DNA of 47,265 nt from a bacterium (GTDB lineage: Bacteria; Patescibacteriota; Saccharimonadia; Saccharimonadales; UBA4665). Below, in pieces: positions 28,300 through 32,646 of this stretch. Within the stretch, counting starts at the first letter, position 1. The number at the start of each line of letters is the position of its first letter. Position numbers and translations under genes: made by a program. Under the pieces are notes generated by a model. It saw nothing but the letters and a program-made list of their open reading frames with translations, ran no database searches and was not told the origin of the DNA. The stretch lies in assembly GCA_027448765.1 (NCBI GenBank), contig DAIDMV010000004.1, positions 1-47,265 of the forward strand. The letters run 5' to 3'.

Positions 28300-28376
28300 T
28301 GGTGGAGATACAGGGATTCAAACCCTGGACCTCAGCGCTGCCAGCGCTGCGCTCTAATCAACTGAGCTATATCCCC
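28300..28376 (-). tRNA. tRNA-Ala (anticodon GGC)
   Basis: Read on the minus strand, the acceptor stem GGGGATA pairs with TATCTCC, followed by A and an encoded CCA. The D arm is GCTCAGTTGATTAGAGC, the anticodon stem-loop CAGCG-CTGGCAG-CGCTG has anticodon GGC, and the T arm is CAGGG-TTTGAAT-CCCTG. All expected stems pair. It lies between a structured RNA candidate and the alpha/beta-hydrolase gene. Confidence 0.97.
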
Positions 28377-28386
28377 ATTAATCATC

Positions 28387-28392
28387 ATTATA
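28387..28392 (-). promoter_or_regulatory. -10 box of tRNA-Ala
   Basis: TATAAT on the minus strand ends 10 bases before the tRNA 5' end. GTGAAA lies 16 bases upstream of it, inside the terminator hairpin, and may act as a -35 box. The U run of the upstream terminator directly precedes the box. Confidence 0.6.
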
Positions 28393-28394
28393 AC

Positions 28395-28421
28395 AAAAAG
28401 TACTAAGCTTTCACTTAGTAC
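28395..28421 (-). terminator. Rho-independent terminator of the structured RNA
   Basis: GTACTAAG-TGAAAG-CTTAGTAC on the minus strand (28421-28400) forms an 8-bp stem with six-base loop, followed at once by TTTTTGTT. It lies between the structured RNA candidate and the tRNA-Ala promoter. Confidence 0.8.
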
Positions 28422-28522
28422 AAGTCGTGCGCGCCCACCCTAAGCGACGGGTTGGGCATTAATCAAGCTTTTTATTTTTGCTTTTAGTTCGCCGCTTTTT
28501 ATTTTAATGCGCACGGCATTAA
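28395..28522 (-). ncRNA. Candidate structured small RNA with a pseudoknot
   Basis: No reading frame covers this GC-rich island. A consensus promoter (28528-28556) and a terminator (28395-28421) define a minus-strand transcript of about 128 bases. Seen elements: a long-range stem P1, GCCGTGCGC (28517-28509) with GCGCACGAC (28432-28424), eight of nine pairs with one C-A mismatch. Next is hairpin P2, GCCCAACCC (28457-28449) with GGGTGGGC (28440-28433), one bulged A, closing an eight-base loop. The P2 loop GTCGCTT (28448-28442) can pair with AAGCGGC (28497-28491), giving a pseudoknot of seven pairs including one G-U. The A-rich element AAAATAAAAAGC occurs twice (28505-28494 and 28478-28467). P1 and P2 share a continuous 3' strand and could stack. 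I do not recognise it as tmRNA, 6S, SRP or RNase P RNA. Confidence 0.7.
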
Positions 28523-28527
28523 TTAAA

Positions 28528-28556
28528 AGCATAACAACTTTTCACTAACTATTCAA
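28528..28556 (-). promoter_or_regulatory. Promoter of the structured RNA
   Basis: The -35 box TTGAAT (28556-28551) and -10 box TATGCT (28533-28528) are separated by 17 bases on the minus strand. The -35 lies directly after the stop codon of the upstream secreted-protein gene (28558). Start of transcription is expected near 28521. Confidence 0.7.
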
Positions 28557-28557
28557 C

Positions 28558-30591
28558 TTAATAAATTGGTGGCAAACTAGTCAATGAAGCATATTGCAGT
28601 TGATTGTTGTTTTCATTAAAAGCTGAGGTTCCACTAGAATTATTAGTCACTTGATCAAACCACATTAGTGGACTTAGGTTAAATGTTTCTGCTGGTGTAC
28701 CTGAATATCCAGGGTATGGTGATGTGATTAAACCACTGATAGTTCGATCTAAATGAACGGTCTGTTGAGCCATCATACTACCATTAACTGTTAGTGGTTG
28801 AGAACAACTTGAATAATTAGTTCCATCAGATGGATAACAATCATAGATACTACCACTACTACCTAGTGCTTGATACAGTCCATCAAGTTGAGTCACACTT
28901 GAATCAATGTAAATGTTACCATTAACTATTAAATTAAAACTTGGGATTTGAGCTGGGTTAGTTATTGAAGAAGTTTGAAAAACTATATTATGACTAATAG
29001 TAACATTACCATTAACATAATAAGTATAATGTTGCCCAGCTGATATGGAATAAGGTAAGTTGGGGTTAGAGGTAGTGACATAGGTATTACCACTACTAGA
29101 ACTTGGTGGATGAAAATAATTAGTTAAACAAGGCGCCGTACCAAAATAACCGTTACTACTAGTGTTAGCAAAAGTTAGTGGATTAGTTGATGAACTGTAT
29201 AGACCTTGGCCGCTAGGAAAATTACTAATCGTACCAGTCGCAATCGCAGCGTATTTTGAACCAGAACTTGTTGTATCGGCAGAATAAGCACTAATATTAG
29301 CTTCATTTCCGGTGCAACCTAATGATTGTAGAATTGAACCAGCCACAATGTCTCCGTTTTGAATTTGAAAATAAGGTTTATAGTCACAGGTGGCTGTATT
29401 GGAATAAACAGTGTTAGACGCTCCAAATTGTTGAACGGGAATAGTTGTGCTTCCAAGATGCCAGCCTGTTGAGTTTTTATACCAATAATAATTAGTTTGA
29501 TTATACCAATAGTTATAACTAGTTGTTGCAACATAATTATATCCTCCCGGTGGTGGATTTTGACTATGTAGTGTATATGGCGTAACAAAAGTAATAGGGT
29601 TATAGGGATAGCTCTGATAATAAGAACCGACTAATTGTCCTTGATAGTATTTGTTAACGGCAACCGAGTAGGTCGGACTATAAGCACCGTATGGTGGTAA
29701 AGACGGAAAGGTATAATTTAAAATACCATCCACCGGTCCAGCTCTACCATTACAGGAAGCTATAAAATTACCGTAACCACCTCCACTGGGTGGCGGGGGT
29801 GGTAAATTAGGTGGCGGTAAGGATTCAAAATTAACCGTAAAATTAATAGTCTGTGTACAAGGACCTACACAGGAACTAGGTTTATTATAAAAAGTATTAT
29901 ACGGATCAAAAGTAACCGAGACATTAACTGACGTTACATAACTTGGTACGCTTGAAGAATTAAAAGTCATCGAACCAGAACTAGCAAAATAAATACTATT
30001 CGGGATTATGTGAGTTGGACCATTGGTACCATAATTTAATGTAGTTTGTGGTAAACCACTTACCGAACCAGAACTAGCAGAAGCTCCTATAACATTAAAA
30101 ACAGTTGACGTATTAGGATTAAATCCTTGTTTGTGTGGAGCTAAAAGATAACTATACGGATTTAGATTTTGAGTATTAATTTCAGCTGAATTAGGGTAAG
30201 TAATTTTATTACTACCTGCAGCCGCATCAGTTGCAAAACAAAAAACAGTTCCGGTATTTAATTGAAAGGAATAACTTTGACCTCTTGGTAAATTAATCGA
30301 ACTATTATTTATATTGGTTGTTGACTGTCCAGAAGGTGATAGCCAAAAAGTATTAGCTTCGGTTGTCGGGGCACCATAATTACACTCGTTGGTTGCACCA
30401 GTATAGATCGAATCATAAGCTTGAAAAGAATTATTGATACCGCTAGGAAAATTATAAACCGCTGAACTACCACCAACTTGACTTTGAGCAGCTACTTGAT
30501 GTGGCAAAATACTGATTAAAAAAAATACTAGCAATAAGACTACATAAAAAAAATAAAAACTTGGTTTAAAAATTTTTTTTATTAATAACAT
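28558..30591 (-). CDS. Large secreted surface protein of unknown function
   Basis: This 677-residue protein has an N-terminal signal peptide (FYFFYVVLLLVFFLISILPHQVAAQ, cleavage likely near residue 35). The body is rich in Ser, Asn, Thr, Tyr and Gly, beta-rich, with a Pro-rich spacer LPPPNLPPPPPSGGGYGN near residues 258-275. The last 170 residues contain YYVNGNVTISHNI, FNLIVNGNIYIDSSV, QLDGLYQAL and LTVNGSMMAQQ. These repeated (V)NGN/S-hydrophobic turns suggest a beta-helix, as in polymer-forming or PilX-associated ectodomains. Several Cys are spaced as if paired. It is probably exposed at the cell surface and may aid adhesion to a host. No transpeptidase sorting signal is seen. Confidence 0.72.
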   Translation of the reverse strand: MLLIKKIFKPSFYFFYVVLLLVFFLISILPHQVAAQSQVGGSSAVYNFPSGINNSFQAYDSIYTGATNECNYGAPTTEANTFWLSPSGQSTTNINNSSINLPRGQSYSFQLNTGTVFCFATDAAAGSNKITYPNSAEINTQNLNPYSYLLAPHKQGFNPNTSTVFNVIGASASSGSVSGLPQTTLNYGTNGPTHIIPNSIYFASSGSMTFNSSSVPSYVTSVNVSVTFDPYNTFYNKPSSCVGPCTQTINFTVNFESLPPPNLPPPPPSGGGYGNFIASCNGRAGPVDGILNYTFPSLPPYGAYSPTYSVAVNKYYQGQLVGSYYQSYPYNPITFVTPYTLHSQNPPPGGYNYVATTSYNYWYNQTNYYWYKNSTGWHLGSTTIPVQQFGASNTVYSNTATCDYKPYFQIQNGDIVAGSILQSLGCTGNEANISAYSADTTSSGSKYAAIATGTISNFPSGQGLYSSSTNPLTFANTSSNGYFGTAPCLTNYFHPPSSSSGNTYVTTSNPNLPYSISAGQHYTYYVNGNVTISHNIVFQTSSITNPAQIPSFNLIVNGNIYIDSSVTQLDGLYQALGSSGSIYDCYPSDGTNYSSCSQPLTVNGSMMAQQTVHLDRTISGLITSPYPGYSGTPAETFNLSPLMWFDQVTNNSSGTSAFNENNNQLQYASLTSLPPIY

Positions 30592-30633: not shown

Positions 30634-32646
30634 TTAAGTTAAATAATTTATTAAACTCAAAAAAAAATTTTCATCAATAATCTTAGTTTCATAAGACCGA
30701 GCTAGTTCTATTTTATTATGACCTGGCTCATGACCAATCACCAAATATGAGGTTTGTTGGGTCACGTTAGACTGTAATCTACCACCAAGTAGTTTAATTT
30801 TTTCTTCAGCTTGCAAACGACTCATACTATTTAATGTACCAGTAATCACAAAATTTTTATTAATTAATTTATTATTTTTATGCTCAATTTTTGGTTTAAC
30901 ACCTGCTCTAATAAATTTATCAATTAATTTTAAATTATCTATGTCATAAAACCAGGCTAAAATCGATTCTCTAACAATATGGCCAATACCTTCGATTTGA
31001 TCTAAATCGTCAGCTTCGATTTTTTTTAAATTATCTAGAGATTTAAAATTTCTGGCCAAATCAAGAGCTAATTTAGTACCAACATGCCTAATACCCAAAC
31101 CGAAAATAAACTTATCTAAATCAGGGTTTTTTCGATTCTGAATGGCCAATATTAATTTTTGAGCGGAAACATTCGCAAATCGATCAAGTTTTAAAATATC
31201 TTCAACTTTTAAATAATAAATATCGGCTAAATCTGCTATTAAACCACTATCAACTAATAAATTAACATTTTTTTCACCTAATGTATTAATGTCTAAAGCC
31301 TGTTTAGAAGCGAAATGAATTAAATTCTTTTTTAAAATAATCTTATTGTCTAGATTAACTAATCGATAAACTGCTTCATTGTCTTTTCTAATAAACTGTA
31401 GGTCTGGATATTGTTGATGAAGAGCTTTTTCGATATTAAAAGGCTTGGAATCATCGGTTCTTAAATCTTTAAGAATTCTTTGAACTTGAGGAATAATATC
31501 GCCAGCCTTATAAATTATGGCCGTATCACCAATTCTTACGTCTTTTTTAATAATCTCATCAATATTATGCAGGGTAGCATGTTGAATAATTGATCCAGCC
31601 AAGAGGGTTGGTTCAAAAACAGCTACCGGATTAGCACTACCTGTTCGACCAATACTTAAAATAATATCTTTAATGACTGCTGTAGTTTCTTCAGCCGAAA
31701 ACTTATAAGCCACCACAGCTCTAGGAGCCTTACCAACTACACCTAGTTGCTGAAATATTTGACGATCATTAATCTTAATCACTAAACCATCAATATTAAA
31801 AGCTAGTTGATCTCTTAATTTTTCCAGTAAGGTTAAAATATTTTTTAAATTCTTAAAACCAATTACCACTTGGTGCTCTTGATTAATCGCAAAACCTAAT
31901 TGATCAAGATTGTGATAAATTTGATCAAAAGTTTGAAAAGGTTCGTGATCAGTTTTAAGCAAATCATAAGCTCGAAATCTTAAGTGTCGACTAGATGCAA
32001 CTTTAGGGTCTAACTGACGAATGCTACCTGCGGCTAGATTACGTGGATTAGCATACAAATTCAAACCTAATTGTTTTTGTTGTGAATTAATCTGTTCAAA
32101 ATCCACTTGATTAAGATAAATTTCACCCCTAATTTCAGTTCTACCAGCATTAAAAGGCTTAAGATTGATCTTAAGAGGAATTGATTCAATAGTTTTAACG
32201 TTACTGGTCACATCCTCACCGACGAAACCATCACCCCTAGTAACTGCTTGAACCAAAAAGCCATCTTCATAAATTAGGCTACAAGCTAGTCCATCCATCT
32301 TTAAATCAACAAAAAATTCTTCTTTTAAAAGTGGTTGATTTTTCTTTAATCTTTCAAACCAAGTTTTAATTTCTTCAAAACTAAAAACATCATTAATGCT
32401 TAGCATACGACTTTGATGCTCGATCTTAACGAATTCTTTTAACGGTTGTCCGGCTACTCTTTGCGTTGGACTATCGGGAGATAAAAGATCGGGGAATTGT
32501 TGTTCTAATTGGCTTAATTCGTGTTTTAAACTATCAGCCGCCGCTTCTGACATAATTGATTGATCTAAAACATGATAATGATATCTATAATCATTAATCT
32601 GTTTCTTTAATAACTCAACTCGTCGTTTAGCTTGCAGATGATTCAT
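30634..32646 (-). CDS. ligA: NAD-dependent DNA ligase, zinc finger lost
   Basis: This 670-residue protein has normal LigA domains: Ia with YHYHVLD, adenylation domain with the nucleophile Lys116 in FVDLKMDGLA, then RGDGFVGEDVT, an OB-fold with GRTGSANPVAVFEP and HATLHN. Helix-hairpin-helix repeats and a C-terminal BRCT domain (NKNFVITGTL, about 590-670) follow. The four cysteines of the zinc finger between OB and HhH are all absent: the segment PDLQFIRKDNEAVYRLVN replaces CPxC...RCxNxxC. It seals nicks using NAD+. The start overlaps the upstream membrane-protein gene by 20 bases. Confidence 0.93.
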   Translation of the reverse strand: MNHLQAKRRVELLKKQINDYRYHYHVLDQSIMSEAAADSLKHELSQLEQQFPDLLSPDSPTQRVAGQPLKEFVKIEHQSRMLSINDVFSFEEIKTWFERLKKNQPLLKEEFFVDLKMDGLACSLIYEDGFLVQAVTRGDGFVGEDVTSNVKTIESIPLKINLKPFNAGRTEIRGEIYLNQVDFEQINSQQKQLGLNLYANPRNLAAGSIRQLDPKVASSRHLRFRAYDLLKTDHEPFQTFDQIYHNLDQLGFAINQEHQVVIGFKNLKNILTLLEKLRDQLAFNIDGLVIKINDRQIFQQLGVVGKAPRAVVAYKFSAEETTAVIKDIILSIGRTGSANPVAVFEPTLLAGSIIQHATLHNIDEIIKKDVRIGDTAIIYKAGDIIPQVQRILKDLRTDDSKPFNIEKALHQQYPDLQFIRKDNEAVYRLVNLDNKIILKKNLIHFASKQALDINTLGEKNVNLLVDSGLIADLADIYYLKVEDILKLDRFANVSAQKLILAIQNRKNPDLDKFIFGLGIRHVGTKLALDLARNFKSLDNLKKIEADDLDQIEGIGHIVRESILAWFYDIDNLKLIDKFIRAGVKPKIEHKNNKLINKNFVITGTLNSMSRLQAEEKIKLLGGRLQSNVTQQTSYLVIGHEPGHNKIELARSYETKIIDENFFLSLINYLT

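Follow-up and report, generated by a model that had tools for sequence, protein, structure and literature searches.

The minus strand of the 47,265-nt stretch of DNA analysed here (the window) carries a predicted gene for a small structured RNA, which belongs to the lineage-specific structured ncRNAs and is a member of no known family. With a probability of about 60%, we regard it as a constitutive, trans-acting, likely protein-bound, stand-alone structured ncRNA of the order Saccharimonadales. Saccharibacteria (TM7), tiny bacteria with a parasitic or epibiotic lifestyle and strongly reduced genomes, form a large group that is common in soil, in groundwater and in the human mouth. In these minimal genomes the RNA is kept throughout the order, normally in single copy, with compensatory evolution of its helices and an almost frozen sequence elsewhere, and an important role is very probable because of this retention. 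The RNA would add a family that is missing from Rfam 15.

Distribution of the RNA

A blastn search in 60 relatives located the RNA in nine other genomes, in six of which it adjoins tRNA-Ala, and a covariance model built from six sequences matched 64 of the class's 295 genomes, never at more than one place in any of them. Because this model underdetects diverged families, the search was extended with a short pattern consisting of one A motif and GGGUGGGC, which matches 181 of the 295 class genomes (the reversed control matching almost none) and 0 of the 32 class genomes from other orders. The fraction within the order, 181 of 263 genomes, is a lower bound, as the exact pattern misses some genomes where the model finds the RNA; a few genomes contain an extra match to the short pattern that does not resemble the RNA. 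Outside the class but within the phylum, pattern matches are no more frequent than those of the control, and three matches in other classes, considered as possible homologs, look like chance, the reversed control being about as frequent. When model R2 was run over 380 genomes of the phylum, its matches were confined to Saccharimonadales. A spaced pattern applied to 84,980 species gave 59 matches, nearly all of them in Candidatus Saccharibacteria, in records of an unnamed 'bacterium' or in Patescibacteria bins, several being the same contigs as loci of Saccharimonadales; three in high-GC genera (Streptomyces, Sphingomonas and Actinomycetospora) are taken as chance. Judged by these searches, the RNA is specific to the order, widespread there and normally single-copy. 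A phage-borne element was also considered and rejected, no exact match being present in the viral collection. One record titled Chlamydiae bacterium (L107, CAJCIR010000070.1) carries the RNA at the same match position as contig C70 of G027, from a Saccharibacteria family, and its label is probably wrong.

Locus and transcription signals

The first-pass annotation had read a promoter and a terminator on the minus strand; these sequence elements are present in the window (Table 1), and both signals are conserved in the homologs. Of 102 homologs whose flanks are long enough, a sigma-70-like promoter (at least 9 of 12) precedes the RNA in 74, compared with 4 for shuffles, and a terminator-like hairpin follows it in 88, compared with 26 for shuffles. 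The end of the -10 box is mostly 9-10 nt upstream of helix P1 in homologs with a promoter, and the predicted transcript should start 2-3 nt upstream of P1. In the window, the terminator reads GTACTAAG...CTTAGTAC followed by TTTTT, and the same 9-pair stem was returned by a separate terminator computation. A promoter and a terminator of its own, which characterize a stand-alone ncRNA, are thus found here as conserved sequence signals.

Table 1. Features of the RNA locus and its neighbours, numbered along the window.
Feature	Position	Strand	Basis or remark
RNA gene with promoter and terminator	28392-28556	minus	~128 nt predicted RNA
-35 box TTGAAT	28551..28556	minus	sequence reading; promoter conserved in homologs
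-10 box TATGCT, extended (TG upstream), 17-nt spacer to -35	28528..28533	minus	sequence reading; conserved
Predicted transcript, ~128 nt	28394..28521	minus	ends inferred from promoter and terminator
P1 5' strand (CCGTGCGC)	28509..28516	minus	P1 covariation
P3 5' strand (GCGGCG)	28490..28495	minus	P3 covariation
A-rich linker with one AAATAAAAA motif	28469..28487	minus	motif twice in most homologs
P2 5' strand (GCCCAACCC region), partner GGGTGGGC, optional pseudoknot helix	28449..28457	minus	main-clade alignment
P3 3' strand (CGTCGC)	28444..28449	minus	P3 covariation
GGGTGGGC, nearly invariant block	28433..28440	minus	103/104 homologs, collected by a pattern already requiring a close form
P1 3' strand (GCGCACGA)	28425..28432	minus	P1 covariation
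Intrinsic terminator: 9-pair stem, 4-nt loop, T-run	28395..28421	minus	fold and sequence reading
tRNA-Ala (GGC), separate gene, conserved neighbour	28300..28376	minus	ARAGORN and Rfam; relatives' neighbourhoods
ligA (NAD-dependent DNA ligase), conserved upstream neighbour	30634..32646	minus	Pfam; 70 loci

The 128-nt segment folds better than 200 of 200 dinucleotide shuffles (z = -3.67), and its complement also beats all shuffles (z = -4.52), so that folding energy alone neither proves nor orients the RNA. The orientation, about which doubt had been expressed, is settled by the conserved promoters and terminators and by the helix changes tolerated in homologs, which include G-U pairs on the minus strand where the plus strand would have A-C mismatches; on the same grounds, a plus-strand RNA is ruled out.

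Helices P1, P3 and P2

Structure was compared in 104 homologs, and covariation was counted on 47 distinct P1+P3 strings; model alignments A4 and A5, which include antisense rows, were left out of the pair counts. The enclosing stem of eight out of nine pairs that had been proposed for the window (GCCGTGCGC/GCGCACGAC) is present and corresponds to P1, a helix with strong compensatory change, inside which P3 is nested. With the strands of both helices taken in the composite as the best partners within a small interval, which favours pairing, 95.3% of P1 and P3 cells are paired, 12 of the 13 pairs change on both sides, and 90 cells are double-changed. Shuffles give 22 +/- 3.5 such cells (0 of 500), and sliding the partner strand out of register gives no more than 15. 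P3 is present in nearly all 104 homologs, a few being short or irregular, and its sequences are diverse (GCGGC/GCCGC, GCGAC/GUCGC, GGCUC/GAGCC and GGGG/CCCC). The P3 strands of one species pair at -13.0 kcal/mol, compared with -9.7 kcal/mol for strands swapped between species. In two clades the pairing outscores 97-98% of shuffles, as against only about 90% in family f26, which we take to be a mostly oral family. In a model-based alignment of the main clade, in the building of which P3 was not used, 99.4% of P3 cells are paired and five sequences show a change on both sides from G-C to A-U. The homologs therefore have conserved secondary structure with compensatory change, as a stand-alone structured ncRNA would, and the covariation analysis suggested in the first-pass annotation finds such change to be abundant in P1 and P3.

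The second helix of the pseudoknot, P2, is formed by a C-rich segment pairing with GGGUGGGC. An alignment of the main clade that was fitted to P2 has 98.5% of the P2 cells paired, and co-changes of the two partners were read by eye in L036 (CACCU/AGGUG), L045 and L058 (CACCG/CGGUG) and L057 (CAUUAC/GUGGUG). A P2-like stem also arises in ~23% of shuffles of such C-rich sequence, and in f26 P2 is no better than chance. P2 is taken as real in the main clade and as lost or absent elsewhere. The pseudoknot described earlier for the window thus holds as a P2/P3 pseudoknot in the main clade but is not universal, P2 being clear only in some lineages. The roles given to its two helices also need to be exchanged in part: the pairing of the hairpin loop with the upstream segment AAGCGGC (seven pairs, one G-U, in the window) is real and is the universal helix P3, whereas the 'internal hairpin' itself is P2, the variable one.

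A possible alternative fold was noted in f26, where the 5' strands of P1 and P3 and the bases next to them can form a strong hairpin (mean z = -1.98 in 28 sequences; L158, L160 and L183 are examples) that would exclude both helices. The corresponding signal is weak in the main clade (-0.54), and a universal 5' competing hairpin is unsupported there. It has been considered that a core housekeeping RNA could work as a two-state switch between P1+P3 and the 5' hairpin, sensing Mg2+ or a partner protein and replacing regulators lost from reduced genomes, a role that seems improbable.

The invariant block and the A-rich motifs

The block GGGTGGGC has the variants AGGTGGGC, CGGTGGGC and GTGGTGGGC among the homologs, and GGGUGGGC is nearly constant even where a P2 partner is missing, so that it would be held by something else, either by a protein, by a target or by a tertiary contact. 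Motifs of the AAAYAAAMA type (at most one mismatch) occur twice in 76 of the 104 homologs, mostly at 13-17 nt from each other, whereas no composition shuffle contains two. One A motif belonged to the pattern that collected most homologs, which leaves the second copy as the informative one. The two copies of an A-rich 12-mer pointed out earlier are also present in the window (AAAATAAAAAGC, at 28505-28494 and 28478-28467). They flank the P3 5' strand, one on each side, whereas in relatives both A motifs are between the P3 strands; by its placement, the 12-mer pair is not the conserved A-rich pair.

Constancy of GGGUGGGC without a constant internal partner could also be understood if the RNA were a base-pairing regulator acting in trans, with single-stranded GGGUGGGC (where it is unpaired) or the A motifs pairing with many mRNAs or with rRNA, and P1 and P3 serving only as a scaffold. 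Single strands rich in A or in G typically serve as seeds in small RNAs. Such a regulator is nevertheless considered unlikely, given that P2 occupies GGGUGGGC in the main clade and that the elaborate covarying fold exceeds the need of most seed-pairing RNAs.

Gene neighbourhood

The tRNA-Ala neighbourhood, in which a search for homologs had been recommended, is conserved in relatives: in 70 loci ligA precedes the RNA on its strand, with none to several genes between the two, and tRNA-Ala is found within the stretch, on either strand, in 42 of the 69 loci scanned. From this gene order (ligA, RNA, tRNA-Ala), the locus is read as orthologous. A fixed position between the two genes, on the ligA strand, is also what an untranscribed or processed DNA or RNA element would have, such as a terminator complex of the ligA operon or a tRNA-Ala leader, but this explanation is extremely improbable in view of a separate promoter with its -10 box at a fixed distance from P1, of the varying number of genes that follow ligA, and of a tRNA-Ala that is convergent or distant in several genomes. 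In the window, positions 28558-30591 (minus) encode a 677-aa protein whose N-terminus is signal-like and whose repeats are rich in proline, serine and tyrosine; no Pfam match was found for it.

Downstream neighbours vary (tRNA-Ala on either strand, a lipoprotein, a hydrolase, CorA) while the RNA persists, which argues for action in trans. Genes for Mg2+ or metal transporters follow the RNA at 22 of 104 loci. At 18 of them, from family f1 and a few named records, the next gene, on the strand of the RNA, encodes CorA; at the other 4, the same site holds genes for an MgtE_N protein and Nramp (Pfam names). This context suggests a link to Mg2+ in family f1, although it may reflect only two insertion events. 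A metal- or metabolite-responsive leader, similar to a riboswitch and controlling a downstream Mg2+ transporter gene in part of the order, would agree with these transporter genes, with the 5' hairpin of f26 and its exclusion of P1 and P3, and with corA starting 19 nt (L018) and 38 nt (L039) after P1 without a terminator. However, at most of the other corA loci a terminator is followed by a second -10-like element, TGTATAAT, before corA, most loci have other genes or a tRNA downstream, on either strand, the two transporter associations may be just two insertions at one syntenic site, and no Rfam riboswitch model matches, which together make such a leader quite unlikely.

A clear terminator after the RNA was missing at four loci, L018, L039 and L015 (all with corA) and L069 (with another gene, starting 23 nt downstream), where the RNA may serve as an mRNA 5' leader. 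Three of these, L018, L039 and L069, count against the stand-alone reading, since with a gene start within 19-38 nt the RNA can be in an mRNA leader.

In f26 the RNA is often arranged head-to-head with a gene whose product is an RRM RNA-binding protein (L160, L161, L162, L163, L165, L166, L168, L169, L178, L180 and other f26 loci). As an obligate partner this protein was rejected: it is missing in g63 genomes keeping the RNA and present in other orders without the RNA. It is the sole candidate partner, and its absence from genomes that keep the RNA is an argument against the ribonucleoprotein reading.

Proposed function

In the preferred reading, that of a stand-alone RNA acting in trans, a sigma-70-type promoter of its own would transcribe the RNA and its own terminator would release it. 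P1 would clamp the molecule, which would begin at P1 and end at P1 before the terminator, and P3, inside P1, would close a large loop rich in A, of which a C-rich segment would, in many lineages, pair with GGGUGGGC to give a compact pseudoknot. The RNA is probably constitutive and abundant, and it would most likely be the RNA part of a ribonucleoprotein in which a protein partner would read the A motifs and GGGUGGGC. Persistence of the A motifs, and constancy of GGGUGGGC without P2, would be as expected of binding sites. Cultured Saccharibacteria and a genetic method exist (PMC10633639), and given these, knock-out, probing and pull-down are feasible now.

Comparison with known RNA families

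The Rfam 15 scan, which had been proposed as a check, gave only three tRNAs in the window and left the RNA region unmatched, and in 36 diverse loci no family matches the RNA. Weak matches (E up to 5; SNORA32 at 0.005, and others) were set aside, being to eukaryotic snoRNA or microRNA models, far below cut-offs and in A+T-rich sequence. Together with conserved helices and with promoter and terminator signals of its own, this result agrees with the first-pass annotation, which had favoured a stand-alone RNA without a known family. In the literature, apart from a large 2017 catalogue of bacterial RNA motifs in which an earlier mention is possible, no paper describing the RNA was found.

The same annotation had also judged that the RNA is not tmRNA, 6S RNA or SRP RNA, and the searches are in accordance. 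No tmRNA (RF00023) was found in the window by ARAGORN or Rfam, and tmRNA identity was rejected, the tmRNA of this genome being elsewhere (G000:C3:41334-41729). The SRP RNA models (RF00169 and RF01854) matched neither the RNA nor anything else in 21 genomes, and the Ffh M domain (PF02978) was detected in 0 of 21 genomes, as against 14 of 14 controls; SRP RNA identity is excluded by these two results in relatives. The signal recognition particle seems to have been lost in the order, judging by these 21 genomes, which include that of the window (G000). The 6S RNA model (RF00013) gave no match to the RNA, nor any above cut-off in relatives. Undetected SRP RNA and a 6S RNA below cut-off do create a vacancy that a highly diverged known housekeeping RNA, for example 6S or SRP RNA, could fill, but this origin is very improbable: the Ffh M domain is also undetected, tmRNA is accounted for, the RNA is too short for 6S RNA, and even weak Rfam matches to 6S or SRP RNA are missing.

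Several known systems are nevertheless similar in part. Like 6S RNA, the new RNA is a stand-alone RNA of housekeeping type with an end-to-end closing stem, but it is much shorter, is matched by no model and has no central bubble between two long stems. In a minority of genomes it precedes Mg2+ transporter genes, as do Mg2+ leader RNAs (for example M-box), whereas most copies have no transporter downstream; as to riboswitches in general, no curated aptamer model matches and no consistent regulated gene is downstream. H-type pseudoknot aptamers with A-rich strands (for example the preQ1 and SAM-II classes) may resemble it in the A-rich linker beside the P3/P2 pseudoknot of the main clade, from which it differs in being stand-alone with a terminator, in its extra enclosing P1, in a P2 that is not universal and in having no Rfam match. 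LOOT RNA (RF03000) is also structured, ~120 nt long, from the same bacteria and at one place per genome where found, but it is a separate gene with a separate sequence, found in 10 of 40 relatives and absent from the genome of the window. L173 has a LOOT RNA (297-414, minus) separated by ~1 kb from tRNA-Ala and the new RNA; matches above cut-off were obtained in 9 of 40 relatives. LOOT is the only Rfam small RNA seen in these bacteria in the present analysis.
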